Shown piece by piece: positions 19,917 through 31,246 of a stretch of DNA of 64,000 nt; the stretch's first letter is position 1, and the number at the start of each line of letters is the position of its first letter. The DNA is from Duncaniella muris (GTDB lineage Bacteria > Bacteroidota > Bacteroidia > Bacteroidales > Muribaculaceae). The position numbers and the translations under genes are program-made. The notes beneath the pieces are model-generated. The model ran no database searches and had not been told where the DNA came from. It saw nothing but the letters and a program-made list of their open reading frames with translations. Location: positions 1-64,000 of the forward strand of contig NZ_PUEC01000012.1 in assembly GCF_003024805.1 (NCBI RefSeq), read 5' to 3'.

Positions 19917-22799
19917 ATGAAACAGATTCTTACCATACTCATGATATTCTGCGCCCTTGCCGCAGGCGCAGCAGGCAAAACCCCAAAAAGGAGCAAAGCA
20001 AAAAAGGCCAGAACCACCAAAGTTGTCTCGGCCCCAGCCGTGCCGCGTCCGGCCCGCGAAGCGTTTGTCACACGTGTGGACGCACCGTCTGTCAAAAAAG
20101 GGCTTGCCGGCAAGAACATAGCCCTCTGGCAAAGCCACGGCCGATATTTCGACCAGAATGAAGAGCGATGGATGTGGCAGCGCGCACGGCTCATGGGCAC
20201 GGTAGAAGACCTGTATCCCCAGGCCTACGTGCTCCCCTACCTCATCCCGATGCTCGAAAATGCCGGGGCCTATGTGATGACTCCGCGCGAACGTGACACC
20301 TCGACTCAGGAAATAATCGTCGACATGGACGGAGGCTTCGCTCAGAAGGACTATAACGAGAAAAACGGACAACAGAAATGGACAGCCGCTGCCGGCATCA
20401 AAGGTTTCGGATATAAGAAAGAGATATTGGAAACCGGCGACAATCCCTTCCGCATGGGCTCTGTCCGCGAAGTGACCACCGTCACCGACCCGGCCAAAGC
20501 ATCCACGGCATCCTGGTATGCCGATTTCCCCAAAGGCGGCAACTATGCGCTCTACATCAGCTATGCCTCGCTCCCAAACAGCGCCCGCGACGCGCGCTAC
20601 ACCGTGAACTCTCTCGCCGGAAGCGAGGAGTTTGACGTGAACCAGCGCATCGGCGGAGGCACATGGGTCTATCTCGGCACCTTCCCCTTTGCGGCAGGCA
20701 AAAGCGACACCCCGGTGGTGGAACTCTCAAACGTCTCGACCGAAAGCGGCAAGGTGGTCACGGCCGATGCCGTCAAGATAGGCGGCGGCATGGGCAATGT
20801 CAGCCGCTCGGCTGCAGGCGGCGAGCCTGTGGTTAGCACCTATCCGCGTTTCACCGAAGGCGCGCGCTACTGGATGCAGTGGGCCGGTGTCCCTTCGTCG
20901 GTCTATAGCATCACCAACGGCGAAAACGACTATGAGGACGACTACAAGAGCCGCGCCCTCTGGGCCAACTACCTTGCCGGAGGCTCATCGCAGCTTCCGG
21001 GAGAGAAAGGCCTCGGAATTCCCGTTGACCTCTCGTTTGCATTCCATACCGACGCCGGCACCACATCTGACCCCGGCGAGACTGTGGGCACGATGCCTAT
21101 TGTCTACACCAAGGGCGCCCGCCTGGGAAGCGGCGAGGCCCGCACCACCTCACGCCGCTATGCCGACATTGTAACCGATCAGATTGTCAGCGACATCCAG
21201 ACCCTCTACGAGCCGACATGGACCCGCCGCAAGCTGCGCGACAAACCCTATCGTGAGGTGATGGACACCAAAGTGCCCGCAATGCTGATCGAGCTTATGA
21301 GCCATCAGAACTTCGCCGACATGCGCTATGGCCTCGACCCCACATTCCGTTTCACCGTCAGCAGAGCCATCTATAAAGGCATTCTGAAATACCTCCATGA
21401 AAAAGACGGTGTGCCCTACGTGGTAGAGCCACTGCCCGTCAGCCATTTCCGCATCGCGGGAAGCGGAGGCGAATATCTTCTCACCTGGCAGGGTGTCGAT
21501 GATCCTCTGGAGCCCTCGGCCAAACCCACATACTATATTGTCTATGAACGTATTGACAACGGAGCCTTCACCGAACTGGCCGTGACTGACGATCCGCAGC
21601 TCACGGTCCGCGTCAAGGATGACCGCATCTACAGCTACAAGGTTGTCGCGGCCAATGACGGAGGCATCAGCTTCCCCTCCGAGATTCTATCACTGTGCGA
21701 CACCGGCACCGACAGACCTCAGGTGCTGATTGTCAACGGCTTCACCCGCATCTCAGGCCCGGCCGAAGTCTATGCCTCAGGCCGCGTAGGCTTCGACTAT
21801 GAGGAAGACCACGGAGTGCCCTACATCAGCGACATCCACTTCACCGGCCTCCAGACCGAATTCCGCCCCGGAGTAGAATGGACATCCAATGACTCTCCCG
21901 GCCACGGCGCCAGCCGCGCGACCCATGAGACCGAAGTCTTCGCCGGCAACACCTTTGACTTCGTCTATGTCCACGGCACCGCCATACGCGCCGCCGGCCA
22001 CTCCTTCATCTCGGCCGGAGTCGACGCCTTTGTCGACAACATGCCCGAAGCCCGCATCATCGACCTCATACTCGGCAAGCAGAAAGAAATCACCGTAGGC
22101 ACCTCGCAGGAACGCAAGTTCAAACCCTTCACCGACGAACTCAAGCAACGCCTGAGCCAATTCTGCGACGCCGGCGGCTCACTCTTCGTGTCGGGCAGCT
22201 ACATAGGCAGCGACCTCTTTGACAACCGCCACTCCATAGGCTCGCAGCGGGTAGCCGACGGACAATTCGGCCACTCGGTGCTCGGCCTCCAGTGGCGTCA
22301 GGCAAAAGCCACAGTCACAGGCAAAGTCCGCGAAGTCAAATCGAAATACGCCGAATTCCATCCGGGCCTCTCGTTCACCTTCCGTCAGCAGCTCAACGCC
22401 GACTGCTACGCCGTGGAATCGCCTGAATCATTCAGCCCCATCGACCCGTCGAACGGCTCCGCCATACTGCGCTACACCGAAAACGACTACATAGCCGGCG
22501 TGGCCTTCGACCCCGGCACCCACCGCGCCGTGACCCTCGGCTTCCCCTTCGAGACCATCACCGGCAGCTACGAGCGTGACGCGCTTATGAAACAGATCCT
22601 CGACTTCTTCACCGCCCCTGAAGGCGTGCATCCCGGCGCACGCCCCAAAGTGCAGCCGGAAACCATCATAGGCCACGAACCACCCACCACACCGACGCAG
22701 ACCCGCACCCCGCGCAACCTGCGCCCACGCGAAGCAGCTGAACTCGCCGAAAACACCGAAGCCCGCAAACCCCGCAAAGGCCCCGCCCGCCAAGCCTAA
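19917..22799 (+). CDS. Secreted amidase-like protein with golvesin-like domain
   Basis: A 960-residue secreted protein: signal peptide ([20 protein letters not shown]), a basic linker, then a region (about 60-470) resembling N-acetylmuramoyl-L-alanine amidase (Amidase_3 fold). It has an [10 protein letters not shown] start, a SFAFHTDAG segment where the SxHxNA motif of amidases would fall, and [13 protein letters not shown] as the late active-site Glu region. A beta-sandwich insert (about 135-290, [19 protein letters not shown]) resembles the golvesin C-terminal/xanthan-lyase module. A fibronectin-like segment and a long C-terminal part follow, ending in a Pro/Arg-rich tail. Such proteins in Bacteroidales are often labelled xanthan lyase; I favour a peptidoglycan-related hydrolase. 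The ATG at 19917 is chosen over the upstream TTG (19911) because GGAGG sits 9 bases before it. Confidence 0.7.
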
Positions 22800-22953: not shown

Positions 22954-24285
22954 ATGAAATCCCGTTTTTCAACCAAAACCATGAAGGATCTGGCCGCTCA
23001 GGCCGGCCGGAGTCCGATATTCATACATCTGTCAGACGATGACGTGACCTTTGTAAACGGCGGTGACCACAGACTGATACAGGTGCTCCGCGAGACCGGT
23101 GCGGCAATGGTGTATTCCGACTTCCTTACACCTGCCGACGGCGGCGATCCTTTGCCCCATCGGCTGATCGACTGCCAGTTCGGGGCAATACGCGATGATT
23201 TCGACTTCGGCCGGGTCGTGGCTGTTGACCCCGCCATGATGCGCCGTGCGGTGGAGGATATGACCGACGATTTCGAGGCTGCCGGCTGGTATGACCTGCG
23301 CCTGCGCCTCTCGCGTCTCGGCAGGATTGTGCACGTCCCGGAGACTCTCTACATGGCTTCGCCCAAGGCATCAGTCTGCGCCGATGAGGGAGAAGAGCAG
23401 TTCCGCTACGTGGACCCGCGCAACCGCAGTTCGCAGATCGAGATGGAAAAAGCCGCCACGGCCCATCTCAAGGCCCTCGGCGCTCTGGTGACACCCGCCG
23501 GAATCACGCGCCCGGACCTCGATGAAGGCTCCTTCCCGACAGAGGCTTCGGTGATCATCCCCGTGCGCAACCGCCACCGCACCATAGCCGATGCCGTCAG
23601 GAGCGCTCTGGCTCAGCAGACATCATTCCCGTTCAACGTCATTGTGATAGACAACCGCAGCACCGACGGCACATCAGAGATTCTTGCCGAAATCGCGGCC
23701 TCAGACCCGCGTCTTAAGATCATAAGCACCGCCCCGGCTCCCGCGCCGGCTCCGGGCATAGGCGGATGCTGGAACCTCGGCATCAACAGCCCCGACTGCG
23801 GACGTTTCGCCGTGCAGCTCGACAGCGATGACATCTACAGCCGCCCCGACACTCTTGAAATGATCGTCGGCAAGTTCCGCGAGACCGGTGCGGCAATGGT
23901 CATCGGCTCTTATATGCTCACCGACTTTAAGGGCAATCCGCTGCCCCCCGGACTGATAGACCATGCGGAATGGACCGATGACAACGGGCCCAACAACGCC
24001 CTGCGCATCAACGGCCTCGGCGCGCCGAGGGCTTTCTTCACCCCCGTGGCCCGCGAGATAGGCTTTCCGGATGTCAGCTACGGCGAAGACTACTCGATGG
24101 GGCTTGCCGTCAGCCGCCGCTACCCGATAGGGCGCATCTATGAACCTCTCTACTCATGCCGCCGCTGGGAAGGCAACTCCGACCACGCCCTCAGCCCTGA
24201 GCGCATCAACGCCAACAACACCTACAAGGACCGTATGCGCACCCTCGAACTCATCTCACGCCAGAAGCTTAACCATGAATCCTGA
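22954..24285 (+). CDS. Family 2 glycosyltransferase with duplicated domain
   Basis: A 443-residue cytosolic or membrane-associated transferase. The C-terminal half is a recognisable GT2/GT-A domain: [18 protein letters not shown] (198-215), DNRSTDGT, and the nucleotide/metal DxD-like QLDSDD at 288-293. The N-terminal half repeats the second part of the fold in degenerate form: LSDDD (26-30) and [13 protein letters not shown] (46-58) parallel [16 protein letters not shown] (309-324). The two copies share an identical 24-base stretch at 23088-23111 and 23877-23900, so the duplication or gene conversion is recent. An odd Pro-Ala run (PAPAPAPG) lies in the transferase domain. The ATG at 22954 is chosen; an upstream start at 22897 would add unconserved-looking residues. 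It overlaps the DUF4922 gene by 11 bases. Confidence 0.82.
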
Positions 24286-25216
24286 AAGTTTCTTCCGGTC
24301 TGAACTTGCGGCGTGGCCTCTAGCTGCTGAAAACTTCCGCAATCTTGAAAAGGCATCGTCCCAGGCAGTAAGCCTGACTGACAGCGAGCCGTGGAGAATC
24401 CGCAAGCTCCTTGTCAGCCACCGGCGCGCCTCCATCACAGCCAAGACAGACCCGCAGAGCATAGCCGCCCGACCCTGCTTCCTCTGCGAGGCCAACCGGC
24501 CGCCGGAACAGAGCGCCATCACCGGCCACGGCTTTCAGACTCTTGTCAACCCCTATCCCCTCGCCCGGCGGCACTACACCATAGCATCCGCGCGCCATGG
24601 ACCGCAGCGCATCAGCGGACACCTGCAGGAGATGGCCCGGCTCACGCGTGAATTCCGCGACCTATGCGTCTTCTACAACGGTCCGCTCTGCGGAGCCTCC
24701 GCTCCTGACCATCTGCACTTCCAGGCTATCTCTACGGAGGTTGCCGCCGGTCTGACCGATCCGAGACTGCCTCTGGAGACTATTGACCCGTCAGACGGAT
24801 GCAAACTGCTGCGCAGCGTCTGCGGCGCGGTCCCCTATCCGTTCTTCATCATTGATTCCACAGACACAGCCGCCATTGTCCGCTGCGCCGACCTGCTGCT
24901 CGACTCGCTGCCGCAGGCTGAGCCGGAACCGATGGTCAACGTGGCTATGGTGATGCTCCCCGACGGCAGACTCCGCACATTCATAGCCCCGCGCCGCCGC
25001 CACCGCCCGGCTGTCTACGGCTCCGGACCCGGTAAGATGCTCATAAGCCCCGCCACAATCGAAATGCTCGGCACCATAGTCTGCTCACGCCCTGAAGACT
25101 TCGAGAGGCTCGACCTTGCCACCGCCACCGCCATACTGAGCGAAGTCAGCCTCGACGAACAGCAATTCGCCGCCACAATTCACCGCTACCAACAACTCAA
25201 CACCCCACAGCAATAA
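24275..25216 (+). CDS. DUF4922 protein, HIT/GalT-like nucleotidyl-transfer fold
   Basis: A 313-residue cytosolic protein of the DUF4922 family. It has a CFLC pair at 68-71 and, at 146-150, HLHFQ preceded by GASAPD. The same H-L-H-F-Q string is, as I recall it, the active-site histidine motif of GDP-hexose phosphorylases of the VTC2/GDPGP1 type and is close to HxHxQ in GalT and Ap4A phosphorylase. A nucleotide-sugar phosphorylase or nucleotidyl-transfer role is therefore plausible but unproven. The ATG lies inside the end of the glycosyltransferase gene (11-base overlap), and the stop overlaps the next ATG (TAATG), so all three genes are translationally coupled. Confidence 0.75.
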
Positions 25217-26550
25217 TGCCCCAGGAACCACGAGTCAGAGTCGGCATCCTCTCAGCCCCGACCATAAGTTTCACCCTCACCGGTCTCTACTCCACGCCCT
25301 CAGGCGAGATGGTCACCGGGCGTCAGGAAGTAAGCCTCAGCGAATCAGGCCTCGCCGTCAGCTGGAACGGCCGCGTCAGCCAGTCGCTCGAATTCGAACC
25401 CACCTCCTATGCAGGCGACAGTTTCGAACTCGAAGGAGTGACCATCGGAGTAGATTTCCATTGGGAGCGCAAAGAAAACCAGCGCTTCCGCGGAGCCTTG
25501 CGCGTGATAGTTGAAAACGGCAGACTAACGGCCGTCAACGAAGTCAATGTCGAAGACTATCTTGTCAGCGTCATCTCAAGCGAAATGAGCTCCACCTCCT
25601 CGCTGGAACTGCTGAGGGCACATGCCGTGATCTCGCGCGGATGGGTGCTGTCAATGATGTCACGAGGCAAGGAGCCCATCCCTCCGGCCGACCGCCGCCC
25701 CGATGTCAGAGCCCTGAATCCCGGACCCTCGCTCATCAGATACTGGGACCGCGAAGACCATCTCAATTTCGACGTCTGCGCCGACGACCACTGCCAGCGC
25801 TATCAGGGCATCAGCCGTGTCTCTACCCCTGTGGCCGCCGGAGCCGTGGCCGACACCCGCGGCATGGTCCTCACCTTCGACGGCGAGCTCTGCGACACCC
25901 GCTTCTCTAAATGCTGCGGCGGAGTCTTCGAAGTCTTCGAGACATGCTGGAATGACACTCCGCGCCCCTATCTCCAGCCCCGGCGCGACGGCGTAGACCC
26001 GACTGACTTCCCCGACCTTACAGTGGAAGAAAACGCCGTCAGCTGGATACTCGGCAAGCCGGAAGCCTTCTGCAACACCACCGACCGGCGAGTGCTCTCA
26101 CAGGTGCTCAACGGCTATGACCGCGAGACTCCCGATTTCTACCGCTGGACAGAGACACTGCCGCAGGAAAAAATTGCACGCCTCGTGGCCGACCGTCTCG
26201 GCGAAGATCTCGGCCGCATACTGAGTCTGACGCCCCTGACCCGCGGCACCTCCGGACGAATCCGTGAACTGAAAATCACCGGCACAAAGGGAGAACGCAT
26301 CATAGGCAAGGAACTGATGATACGCCGCACTCTCTCTGACAGCCATCTCTACAGCTCGGCCTTTGTGGTCGAGCCTTTGGCTCCGGAAGCCGACGGCACC
26401 CCTTCAGGCTTCACTCTCCACGGAGCCGGATGGGGCCACGGCGCAGGCCTGTGTCAGATCGGAGCCGCTATCATGGGCGAACGCGGCTATGGCTACTCCG
26501 AAATCCTCGCCCGCTACTACCCCGGCTCAACCCTCACAAAACTATATTAG
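25216..26550 (+). CDS. SpoIID/LytB-domain protein without signal peptide
   Basis: A 444-residue homologue of the SpoIID/LytB fold, whose founding member cleaves glycan strands lacking stem peptides. The core has VNVEDYLVSVISSEM (general-acid Glu at residue 123), LLRAHAVISRGWVL, and the C-terminal GWGHGAGLCQIGA (405-417), matching the GxGHGxGxSQxGA signature with Cys for Ser. A middle insert holds a CADDHCQRY segment and SKCCGG, so cysteines are frequent. The N-terminus ([12 protein letters not shown]) starts directly in the domain; there is no secretion signal, so the protein should stay in the cytoplasm, unlike SpoIID. It is third in the overlapping operon. Bacteroidota do not sporulate. Confidence 0.85.
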   Translation: MPQEPRVRVGILSAPTISFTLTGLYSTPSGEMVTGRQEVSLSESGLAVSWNGRVSQSLEFEPTSYAGDSFELEGVTIGVDFHWERKENQRFRGALRVIVENGRLTAVNEVNVEDYLVSVISSEMSSTSSLELLRAHAVISRGWVLSMMSRGKEPIPPADRRPDVRALNPGPSLIRYWDREDHLNFDVCADDHCQRYQGISRVSTPVAAGAVADTRGMVLTFDGELCDTRFSKCCGGVFEVFETCWNDTPRPYLQPRRDGVDPTDFPDLTVEENAVSWILGKPEAFCNTTDRRVLSQVLNGYDRETPDFYRWTETLPQEKIARLVADRLGEDLGRILSLTPLTRGTSGRIRELKITGTKGERIIGKELMIRRTLSDSHLYSSAFVVEPLAPEADGTPSGFTLHGAGWGHGAGLCQIGAAIMGERGYGYSEILARYYPGSTLTKLY

Positions 26551-28437: not shown

Positions 28438-29940
28438 ATGAAACTTAAAAGTCTTTCAGCCTACGCGGTAGGCTTGTTTGTGGGTCTCGCCCAGATGACA
28501 AGCGCCACCGCCCAGACCACTGACTACAGTTCCTACTACAAGAATCTCCCCATCAACCAGCCTCAGGTCTCGGCCCCGGTGATTCCGGCCTATGAGATCA
28601 AGATCACTGACTTCGGCGGTGTCAACGATGGTGTCACTCTCAACACCGAAGCCTTCGCCAAAGCAATGGCCCACCTCGCCTCCAAGGGCGGCGGCCGCCT
28701 CGTGGTTCCGGAAGGAATCTGGTACACCGGCCCGATTGCATTTGAAAACAACGTCGAACTTCATCTCGAACGCGGCGCGCTGGTGCTTTTCAGCGAAAAC
28801 CTCGCCGACTATCCCGCAGTAGCCTCTGACTGGGAAGGTCTCACGACTCACCGCGCCACATCTCCCCTCTCGGCCCGCGGCAAACATGACATCGCAATCA
28901 CCGGCGACGGCACTTTCAACGGCAACGGCCAGAAATGGCGCCCTGTAAAGAGAGGCAAAATGACTGACAACCAGTGGAAAGCGCTCCTGAAGAGCGGCTG
29001 CGTCAACGCCAAGGGCGATGTGTGGTTTCCCAACGAACGCATCCGCGAGGTCTATGAAAACAAGGCACTCCAGGCCAAGGTGCACCACGGTGACAAAGAA
29101 ACCGTTGACTATGCCCATGACTTCCTCCGCCCGGTGCTCCTCTCGTTCATCGACTGCAAGAATGTGCTACTCAAAGATGCCACATTCGAAAACTCTCCCG
29201 CCTGGAACCTTCACCCGCTCCTGTGCGAGAATCTGATTGTAGACAACATCAACGTCCGCAACCCCTGGTATGCGCAGAACGGTGACGGCATCGACATCGA
29301 GTCGTGCAACAAGGTGCTCGTCATCAACAGCCGCTTCGATGTGGGCGACGACGCCATCTGCATCAAATCAGGCAAGGACAAGGACGGCCGCGAACGTGGC
29401 ATTCCCTGCCGCGACGTAGTGATAGAAGGCTGCACTGTCTATCACGGCCACGGCGGCTTCGTGATCGGCTCTGAAATGTCTGGCGGCTGCAAAGACATTG
29501 TGATCCGCAACAGCGTGTTCATCGGCACCGACGTGGGCCTGCGTTTCAAATCTACCCGCGGTCGCGGCGGCGTGGTCGAAAACATATATGTGGACAATAT
29601 CAAGATGACCGACATTGCCGGCGAGGCTCTGATCTTCGACATGTACTACGGCATCAAGCCGGGCGCTCCTGTTCCTCCGGTGACAGAAGAGACCCCCTCG
29701 TTCCGCAACATCTACATCAAAGACGTGACCTGCCGCTCGGCCAAACGCGCGGCGCTCTTCAACGGTCTGCCTGAGATGCCGATGAAAAACGTGGTCATCA
29801 CCGACTCCCGTTTCCGTGCCGACGCAGGCTTCCTGCTCAACCACGTGGACGGCCTGACGCTCGACAATGTCACAGTAGATGTGGCCGGCGACAAGATCAC
29901 CGAAGGCGAGGGTGTCAAGAATGTAAAAATCAAAAAGTGA
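28438..29940 (+). CDS. GH28 polygalacturonase
   Basis: Exported glycoside hydrolase family 28 enzyme that hydrolyses alpha-1,4-galacturonan (inverting). The 500-residue protein begins with a signal peptide ending near TSATAQ, then a parallel beta-helix starting at ITDFGGVNDGVTLNTEAF. All four catalytic signatures are intact: NGDGID (Asn281, Asp283, Asp286), GDDAIC (Asp304, Asp305), GHGGFVIGSE (His338) and RFKSTRGRGG (Arg369, Lys371). It is followed 19 bases later by an MFS transporter gene. With the two CE8 genes it forms the pectin-cleaving part of the locus. It could act exo or endo; the QAKVHHGDKE-type insert near residue 215 hints at an exo-acting pocket, which is inference. Confidence 0.92.
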   Translation: MKLKSLSAYAVGLFVGLAQMTSATAQTTDYSSYYKNLPINQPQVSAPVIPAYEIKITDFGGVNDGVTLNTEAFAKAMAHLASKGGGRLVVPEGIWYTGPIAFENNVELHLERGALVLFSENLADYPAVASDWEGLTTHRATSPLSARGKHDIAITGDGTFNGNGQKWRPVKRGKMTDNQWKALLKSGCVNAKGDVWFPNERIREVYENKALQAKVHHGDKETVDYAHDFLRPVLLSFIDCKNVLLKDATFENSPAWNLHPLLCENLIVDNINVRNPWYAQNGDGIDIESCNKVLVINSRFDVGDDAICIKSGKDKDGRERGIPCRDVVIEGCTVYHGHGGFVIGSEMSGGCKDIVIRNSVFIGTDVGLRFKSTRGRGGVVENIYVDNIKMTDIAGEALIFDMYYGIKPGAPVPPVTEETPSFRNIYIKDVTCRSAKRAALFNGLPEMPMKNVVITDSRFRADAGFLLNHVDGLTLDNVTVDVAGDKITEGEGVKNVKIKK

Positions 29941-29959: not shown

Positions 29960-31246
29960 TTGAAAAGCAATCCGAAACAACCGAACGTGAGTCGGAATCC
30001 CTGGACGTGGATTCCGACTCTCTATTTTGCCCAAGGGCTCCCCTACGTTGCCGTGATGACTATTTCGGTGATCATGTACAAACGTCTGGGCATTTCCAAC
30101 ACCGACATAGCCCTCTATACCGGATGGCTCTACCTGCCGTGGGTCATCAAGCCCTTCTGGAGTCCCTTTGTTGACATCATCAGCACCAAACGGCGCTGGA
30201 CTCTCACCATGCAGTGGCTCATAGCCGCCGCTTTTGCCGGCATAGCCTTCGCGCTTCCCACTCCGCTGTGGTTCTCTCTGACACTGGCCGTGTTCTGGAT
30301 GGTAGGATTCACCTCCGCCACCCACGACATAGCTGCTGACGGCTACTATATGCTTGCTCTGAGCGAACACCAGCAGTCGCTCTACGTGGGCATACGCTCC
30401 ACGTTCTACCGTGTGGCCACCGTAGTGGGCCAGGGGCTGCTCGTCATCATAGCCGGAGCGCTTGAAACCGCCACCGGTGACATTCCGCTCTCATGGGCCA
30501 TAGTCTTCGCCATACTGTCGCTGCTCTTCCTCGGTTTCGCCCTCTACCACTCATGGGCCATGCCCAAGGTGGAAAGCAAGGCCGGAAAACTGCGCTCGGC
30601 TTCTGATGTGTGGCGTGAATTTGTCGATGTCTTCACCGAATTCTTCAGAAAGAAGCAGGTCGGGGTGGCAATTATCTTCATGCTCCTCTACCGCCTGCCT
30701 GAGGCCCAGCTGGTCAAGCTCATCAACCCCTTCCTCCTCGACCCTGCGGAGGCCGGAGGGCTCGGTCTGAGCACCGCGCAGGTCGGGGTGGTCTACGGCA
30801 CTGTGGGAATCATCGGGCTCACACTCGGCGGCATCGTTGGCGGCATCGTGGCCGCGCGCCGCGGACTCGGCTTCTGGCTGCGCCCTATGGCATGGAGCAT
30901 GTCGCTCACCTGCCTGACATTCGTGTATCTCAGTTTCGCCACAGACGCTCCGCTGGCGGTTGTCAACATCTGTGTCTCCATCGAGCAGTTCGGCTACGGC
31001 TTCGGCTTCACGGCCTATATGCTCTATCTGATCTACTTCTCCGAAGGGCGTCACCGCACGGCCCACTACAGTATCTGCACCGGATTCATGGCCCTCGGCA
31101 TGATGCTTCCGGGCATGGCCGCCGGTTGGATTCAGGAGGCAGTTGGCTACCAGAACTTCTTCATCTGGACTATGATCTGCTGTCTGGCCACTATCGGCGT
31201 CACATATCTTATCAGGATCGACCCTTCATTCGGGGTGAAGAAATAG
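29960..31246 (+). CDS. AmpG-like MFS transporter
   Basis: A 428-residue 12-helix permease. The N-terminus (WTWIPTLYFAQGLPYVAVMTISVIMYKRLG) is typical of the AmpG/acetyl-CoA transporter branch of the major facilitator superfamily; THDIAADGYYM and the loop after helix 2 (DIISTKRRWT) also fit. The start codon is TTG (29960); no ATG precedes the first helix. It lies 19 bases after GH28 and probably shares its transcript, so an oligogalacturonide or sugar substrate is as plausible as muropeptides. A bidirectional terminator follows. Confidence 0.82.
   Translation: MKSNPKQPNVSRNPWTWIPTLYFAQGLPYVAVMTISVIMYKRLGISNTDIALYTGWLYLPWVIKPFWSPFVDIISTKRRWTLTMQWLIAAAFAGIAFALPTPLWFSLTLAVFWMVGFTSATHDIAADGYYMLALSEHQQSLYVGIRSTFYRVATVVGQGLLVIIAGALETATGDIPLSWAIVFAILSLLFLGFALYHSWAMPKVESKAGKLRSASDVWREFVDVFTEFFRKKQVGVAIIFMLLYRLPEAQLVKLINPFLLDPAEAGGLGLSTAQVGVVYGTVGIIGLTLGGIVGGIVAARRGLGFWLRPMAWSMSLTCLTFVYLSFATDAPLAVVNICVSIEQFGYGFGFTAYMLYLIYFSEGRHRTAHYSICTGFMALGMMLPGMAAGWIQEAVGYQNFFIWTMICCLATIGVTYLIRIDPSFGVKK

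Follow-up and report, generated by a model that had tools for sequence, protein, structure and literature searches.

The described system closest to the genes examined here is an operon of Tannerella forsythia, Tanf_08345-08385 (ampG-murTKQ), which is transcribed as a single unit under regulation by GppX and whose AmpG permease is functional in Escherichia coli (PMC5388701; this and the other reports are cited from the excerpts available). T. forsythia AmpG imports the peptidoglycan disaccharides GlcNAc-anhMurNAc and GlcNAc-MurNAc (N-acetylglucosamine linked to 1,6-anhydro-N-acetylmuramic acid or to N-acetylmuramic acid), both of which support growth of the organism, the anhydro digest to a lesser degree (PMC7670621). 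As far as the available text of that report goes, no AnmK is predicted in T. forsythia and the processing of the imported fragments is named as an open question; MurK phosphorylates MurNAc (PMC7670621, PMC10465942). The published labels within the operon are xanthan lyase, glycosyltransferase, glycosyltransferase and amidase enhancer (PMC5388701), and the literature excerpts searched, which do not cover subscription papers, assign no function to Tanf_08350-08360. Here we analyze a 64,000-nucleotide stretch of the Duncaniella muris genome (contig NZ_PUEC01000012.1, positions 1 to 64,000; hereafter the window), in which genes for a GT2 glycosyltransferase, a DUF4922 protein and a SpoIID/LytB-domain protein follow one another in the same order as in that operon. 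In T. forsythia ATCC 43037 (contig NZ_JUET01000082, our locus L084) the order reads golvesin-GT2-DUF4922-SpoIID-AmpG-NamZ-MurT-MurK-MurQ, and by this order Tanf_08355, a glycosyltransferase in Figure 2 of PMC5388701, is the DUF4922 gene.

The three genes of the window lie on the forward strand at 22954..24285 (GT2, 443 amino acids), 24275..25216 (DUF4922, 313 amino acids) and 25216..26550 (SpoIID, 444 amino acids), with overlaps of 11 bases and 1 base. An earlier note on this DNA (the original prediction) had described these reading frames, overlaps and motifs, all of which were borne out on re-inspection of the sequence. We propose that the trio forms a cytosolic module that processes AmpG-imported peptidoglycan sugar fragments, a reading to which we assign a probability of roughly 0.6; our confidence is fair at the level of the pathway and low for the individual reactions. 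If correct, it would give a SpoIID enzyme a cytosolic use and bacterial DUF4922 proteins a role, and would offer three candidate enzymes for the question left open in T. forsythia (PMC7670621). The trio as such appears in no title or opening of an abstract among the matches listed from the same literature.

Inheritance is the first line of evidence. In 198 Bacteroidales genomes, a profile search for the SpoIID type (strong matches exceeding 200 bits; weaker ones, at 1e-7 to 1e-15, were taken to be canonical SpoIID and excluded) found it in 48, together with GT2 in 47 (1e-60 or better), DUF4922 in 46 (a 25.5-bit match in genome G191 was left out), AmpG in 50 (1e-30) and all four in 46. AmpG is present in 48/48 genomes with the SpoIID type and in 2 of the 150 others, and neither GT2 nor DUF4922 occurs in any of those 150. 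(Genome lists for these counts, and for the AnmK, MurQ and NagZ-like counts below, were transferred by hand between search outputs.) The conserved association of the three families, on which the original prediction depended, is thus found in 46 of the 48 SpoIID-type genomes, and a chance neighbourhood was rejected, co-occurrence being far above chance. In 28 of the 46 four-gene genomes GT2, DUF4922 and AmpG are all found no more than 12 kb from SpoIID, whereas in 13 neither GT2 nor DUF4922 is that close; contig breaks may explain part of these, but G160 is a single contig and has its SpoIID 1.4 Mb away from GT2, DUF4922 and AmpG. That all four are kept even where SpoIID is distant argues for functional linkage and not only for shared transfer or hitch-hiking. 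The trio and AmpG thus behave as one inherited unit across the Bacteroidales, including Bacteroides, Prevotella and Muribaculaceae. A smaller screen found DUF4922 in 41 of 61 genomes (that of the window and 60 relatives); when 30 DUF4922 loci of 2.5-3.5 kb, the window's included, were searched with the window proteins as queries, 24 carried both GT2 and SpoIID, 5 carried one only and 1 (L010) carried neither.

Fusions and neighbours point the same way. Among the best 80 of 553 confirmed loci found by SpoIID, 24 contain fusions: 7 of GT2, DUF4922 and SpoIID, 7 of GT2 and DUF4922, and 10 of DUF4922 and SpoIID. Six of the triple fusions are complete, at 1251-1313 amino acids, and all six come from Prevotella or Segatella; the seventh is truncated by a contig end. 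All three Pfam domains were found in the Segatella buccae chain, and three further fusion proteins outside these loci carry two domains each. The genes on the same strand near SpoIID in the best 80 loci are AmpG (74), DUF4922 (67), GT2 (65), NamZ (37), golvesin-amidase (35), a MurK/GlcK-like kinase (30), MurT (29), MurQ (25) and a lactate-type FAD/Fe-S dehydrogenase (17), whose substrate we take to be D-lactate; these are lower bounds, since genes were called by a simple longest-ORF rule that miscalled some (e.g., L095, L105 and L144). Pfam searches of examples found NamZ and FAD-oxidase domains, with a SIS domain in the MurQ reference and HGSNAT_cat in the MurT reference, and the kinase matches the GlcNAc/MurNAc kinase structures 8oqk and 8ow9.

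The location of the proteins can be judged from their N-termini. By a simple hydropathy rule, used in place of a signal-peptide predictor, a strongly hydrophobic N-terminus was found in 2/103 SpoIID, 2/69 DUF4922 and 5/81 GT2 relatives, compared with 38/47 golvesin-amidase and 56/58 NamZ neighbours; of the 27 fusion chains, 25 have no such N-terminus. On these grounds we rejected the possibility that a signal peptide on SpoIID had been overlooked, and the lack of an export signal claimed by the original prediction extends to nearly all relatives. The fusions and the rarity of hydrophobic N-termini together indicate that GT2, DUF4922 and SpoIID are cytosolic and very probably act on one metabolic route.

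The SpoIID protein belongs to its family by domain (PF08486, E 3.3e-21, 76.2 bits against a cut-off of 23; TIGR02669, E 3.1e-44, 151.9 bits against 83.3) and by catalytic and zinc-type residues, without the extracytoplasmic signal or anchor. It carries Glu123 and GWGHGAGLCQIGA; Glu123, His182, Cys188, His192 and Cys193 are invariant in 14/14 sequences, and Glu123 is in register with a solved SpoIID in a profile alignment. Its zinc-type residues were matched by eye to H134, C140, H145 and C146 of Clostridioides difficile SpoIID (PMC6221140), with a one-residue spacing difference; the profile alignment is not in register there. The domain, the catalytic Glu and the C. difficile-type Cys/His residues are thus common to this protein and the SpoIID of Bacillus subtilis, C. 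difficile and Waddlia, but the window protein differs in lacking an export signal, in its extra N-terminal region and in being fused to or overlapping cytosolic enzymes. Its best match among the 80 loci, from a Muribaculaceae metagenome-assembled genome, is 76% identical.

The module also fits a gap in the known recycling steps. AmpG disaccharide import is shared with the AmpG-NagZ-AmpD-LdcA-AnmK-MurQ route of E. coli, and true MurQ (>100 bits) occurs in 26/48 module genomes against 18/150 others; unlike in E. coli, AnmK is absent from 42/48 module genomes, no Bacteroidales genome passes the NagZ model cut-off of 207 bits (0/198), and the trio is present. AnmK was found in 6 of 48 genomes with the module against 130 of the 150 without it (Fisher p 2.6e-21) and, after collapse to 109 families, in 6/28 with and 74/81 without it (p 5.9e-12; families f10, f12, f14 and f18, outside the 198-genome sample, were left out). 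In the 61-genome set AnmK occurs in 13 genomes, together with DUF4922 only in G043, and the genomes of T. forsythia, S. buccae and Bacteroides bouchesdurhonensis gave no AnmK match (0/3). AnmK and true MurQ were likewise not found in a search of the window genome (the best MurQ match, at 3.3e-9 and 36.5 bits, lies within a frame of 618 amino acids), and its best NagZ-model match, at 1.1e-6, is below the cut-off. NagZ-like GH3 proteins at 1e-30 are absent from 10/48 module genomes and 8/150 others; of the eight best-scoring loci, the commoner proteins of about 1000 residues being left out, seven have a readable start and six of these a strongly hydrophobic N-terminus, by which the best NagZ-like GH3 proteins look secreted.

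Two layouts seem to prevail among the Bacteroidales: AmpG accompanied by the trio, and AnmK in genomes that lack this AmpG. The 12 AnmK regions inspected for an operon with AnmK in the position of the trio (L053-L064) contain neither the trio genes nor this AmpG, and a NamZ-like gene only in L061 (33% identity). The second layout resembles that of Rhodothermus marinus, a Bacteroidota-group bacterium with a periplasmic NagZ, no AmpG according to the available text, and an intracellular AnmK (PMC6987092), which offers another answer to the same problem by cutting the disaccharide outside the inner membrane, unlike the proposed cytosolic trio. From co-inheritance, fusions and location we infer that the trio acts jointly on AmpG-imported fragments, standing in for the NagZ and AnmK steps of E. 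coli. Judged from sequence comparison, it is probably the three-enzyme core, of candidate function, of a peptidoglycan salvage branch in Bacteroidota.

In the route that we envisage, AmpG would bring GlcNAc-anhMurNAc and GlcNAc-MurNAc into the cytosol, the step shown in T. forsythia. In lytic transglycosylases it is normally the O6 of the reactive MurNAc intermediate itself that closes the ring; SpoIID may carry out the microscopic reverse, opening the 1,6-anhydro ring with water through Glu123 as acid/base. The missing step is this conversion of the anhydro ring and water to MurNAc, a chemically permissible reaction, and the Waddlia SpoIID admits water and has muramidase activity towards bare glycans (PMC6635528); we regard SpoIID as a tentative candidate for the ring opener, at somewhat less than even odds. 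The GlcNAc-MurNAc bond could be split by GT2 running backwards onto a nucleoside diphosphate (NDP), with DUF4922 then phosphorolysing the NDP-sugar to sugar-1-phosphate and regenerated NDP. GalT-fold phosphorylases convert NDP-sugar and phosphate to NDP and sugar-1-phosphate, but this joint NDP cycle is speculation and on balance unlikely. Freed MurNAc might pass to MurK and MurQ or to UDP-MurNAc, and in some genomes D-lactate, the by-product of MurQ, might be oxidised by the adjacent dehydrogenase-like enzyme. Taken whole, with a reversed SpoIID as ATP-free anhydro-MurNAc opener, a reverse GT2 and an NDP-sugar phosphorylase, the scheme would be a phosphorolysis of AmpG-imported disaccharides and a full NagZ and AnmK alternative that conserves glycosidic-bond energy; in this complete form it is unlikely, slightly more so than the NDP cycle alone. 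In Prevotella and Segatella the three proposed activities would sit on one trifunctional polypeptide.

Several observations weigh against this proposal. DUF4922 is absent from 2/48 SpoIID-type genomes (G126 and G207) and GT2 from one (G126), and 6 Bacteroidales genomes hold both AnmK and the module; on one contig of G156 (L070) some 8 kb separate AnmK from SpoIID, which MurQ adjoins. Relatedness was corrected by the family collapse only, with no tree. The SpoIID type occurs in 36 of 247 genomes of a phylum sample, 33 of them outside Bacteroidales, and AnmK coexists with it in 14 of these 33 (one match being a fragment), while among other Bacteroidia without the SpoIID type AnmK was found in 20/20 (the first 20 listed). 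Six loci outside the order combine GT2 and AmpG, three in genomes with AnmK (G339, G343 and G487) and three in genomes without (G301, G324 and G366). Within Bacteroidales, AnmK also tracks the absence of AmpG (6/50 genomes with AmpG against 130/148 without), and the exclusion may therefore reflect the import route and not the function. In two other Bacteroidota families, f128 and f146, a GT4 gene adjoins SpoIID in 10/15 loci (L168, L169, L177, L178 and L181-L186; Pfam found Glycos_transf_1 in L168, the one tested) and AmpG is nearby in 1/15; this speaks against a reverse-GT2 step being obligatory, as GT2 is not an obligate partner everywhere. Growth of T. forsythia on free anhMurNAc is poor (PMC7670621). 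Titles and abstracts among the matches listed, subscription papers not being covered, contain no reverse lytic transglycosylase. No lytic transglycosylase is known to run in reverse. A one-for-one swap for AnmK was dropped, as this AmpG is missing from most genomes with AnmK and coexistence occurs outside the order; the AmpG survey and this coexistence reduce the claim to a module doing comparable work, with replacement of AnmK not strict. The AnmK exclusion is a pattern of the Bacteroidales, confounded with AmpG.

The main rival to the reverse-GT2 step is a forward GT2. The trio might then modify muropeptide sugars and not degrade them, with GT2 glycosylating them, DUF4922 making or recycling the NDP-sugar and SpoIID trimming the product to a signal, storage or detoxified form. 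GT2 looks competent for forward transfer, its DxD and ED residues (Asp290/292/293, Glu378 and Asp379) being invariant in 46/46 sequences and its nearest folds being polysaccharide polymerases; the GT4 neighbours of SpoIID in the two families above would fit as well, and the T. forsythia operon has also been called glycosylation-related (PMC5388701). Modification leaves unexplained, however, how MurNAc is reached from imported disaccharide in cells without AnmK and NagZ, and T. forsythia grows on GlcNAc-anhMurNAc (PMC7670621). When 21 loci were clustered, only the trio, AmpG, NamZ, the kinase, golvesin and the dehydrogenase recurred in more than 2, and a conserved export or polymerisation gene was thus not seen. 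We consider modification improbable.

The original prediction favoured a free-standing cytosolic pathway for a glycan or a nucleotide sugar such as GDP-hexose, apart from peptidoglycan. Its view of a cytosolic trio acting on a glycan agrees with our results, but an isolated system does not, given AmpG in 48/48 SpoIID-type genomes and MurK, NamZ, MurT and MurQ as neighbours, and we judge such a pathway very unlikely. Least likely of all is a conventional role for SpoIID as a septal lytic transglycosylase or amidase enhancer, secreted by way of an overlooked signal and placed beside the other genes for regulatory convenience: the SpoIID/LytB domain, catalytic Glu and zinc-type residues are conserved, and amidase-like and NamZ proteins that are probably secreted are encoded in the operon too, but hydrophobic N-termini are as rare among SpoIID relatives and fusion chains as they are common in NamZ.

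The HIT/GalT fold that the original prediction required of DUF4922 was found. The protein (PF16269, E 6.3e-46) has the Ap4A-phosphorylase/GalT fold and the residues of the GalT/Ap4A phosphorylase superfamily, an HxHxQ nucleophile motif and CxxC/His residues; fold, HxHxQ and CxxC are common to Apa2 (Ap4A phosphorylase), GalT and ADP-glucose phosphorylase, at only 14-16% identity in structural alignments, and a PDB sequence search gave matches at chance level only. CFLC contributes Cys68 and Cys71, and His146 and His148 lie in its 11-residue motif; these four, His100, His108 and Gln150 are invariant in 64/64 sequences, with catalytic roles that we presume to be those of GalT. GDPGP1/VTC2 is absent among the structural matches listed, which is no evidence against kinship, and the sole link seen to these GDP-hexose phosphorylases is the presence of the DUF4922 superfamily in group I GGP proteins of plants (PMC9871823). 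The DUF4922 literature found concerns plant GGP only, with no paper on a bacterial DUF4922 protein outside the subscription papers, which were not covered.

GT2 had been described as a two-domain glycosyltransferase. One GT2 domain (PF00535, E 5.5e-20) is confined to residues ~195-443, and the N-terminal part, which has no Pfam match, partly repeats the later half (half-against-half BLASTP, E 3e-6 over 50 residues); the protein is better described as having one catalytic domain and a partial internal duplication. A 25-base exact direct repeat (23087-23111 and 23876-23900) lies inside the partly duplicated region.

Upstream of the trio, on the same strand, 19917..22799 encodes a likely secreted protein, the counterpart of the first T. 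forsythia operon gene (annotated xanthan lyase). Its golvesin C-terminal domain is clear (E 2e-22), while Amidase_3, at 26.4 bits, falls slightly below the Pfam cut-off of 27; secretion as originally predicted seems likely, and the amidase likeness stays sub-threshold. In 6 of the best 80 loci and two further genomes (L066, L067, L073, L075, L076, L080, L094 and L105), a protein of about 620 residues with a hydrophobic N-terminus, a calcineurin-like phosphoesterase and a PQQ-type beta-propeller (Pfam on L066) is encoded between the golvesin gene and GT2. A variant cluster, L068 in G207, lacks DUF4922 and combines SpoIID and AmpG with a divergent GT2, a GDSL lipase-family protein and a kinase-like protein that has no Pfam match; G207 also has AnmK. 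Downstream, the AmpG-type muropeptide permease (major facilitator superfamily; 29960..31246, forward strand) is 59% identical to T. forsythia AmpG. In 17 of the 50 AmpG genomes the profile match is split in two by an insert of about 190 residues after about residue 174, in frames of 545-780 residues (e.g., L031:9943-11811). Between SpoIID and AmpG the window holds a pectinesterase gene (PF01095, 26683-28182) and then a GH28 gene (28438-29940); as SpoIID and AmpG are usually adjacent in relatives, the window operon seems to carry inserted pectin-degradation genes.

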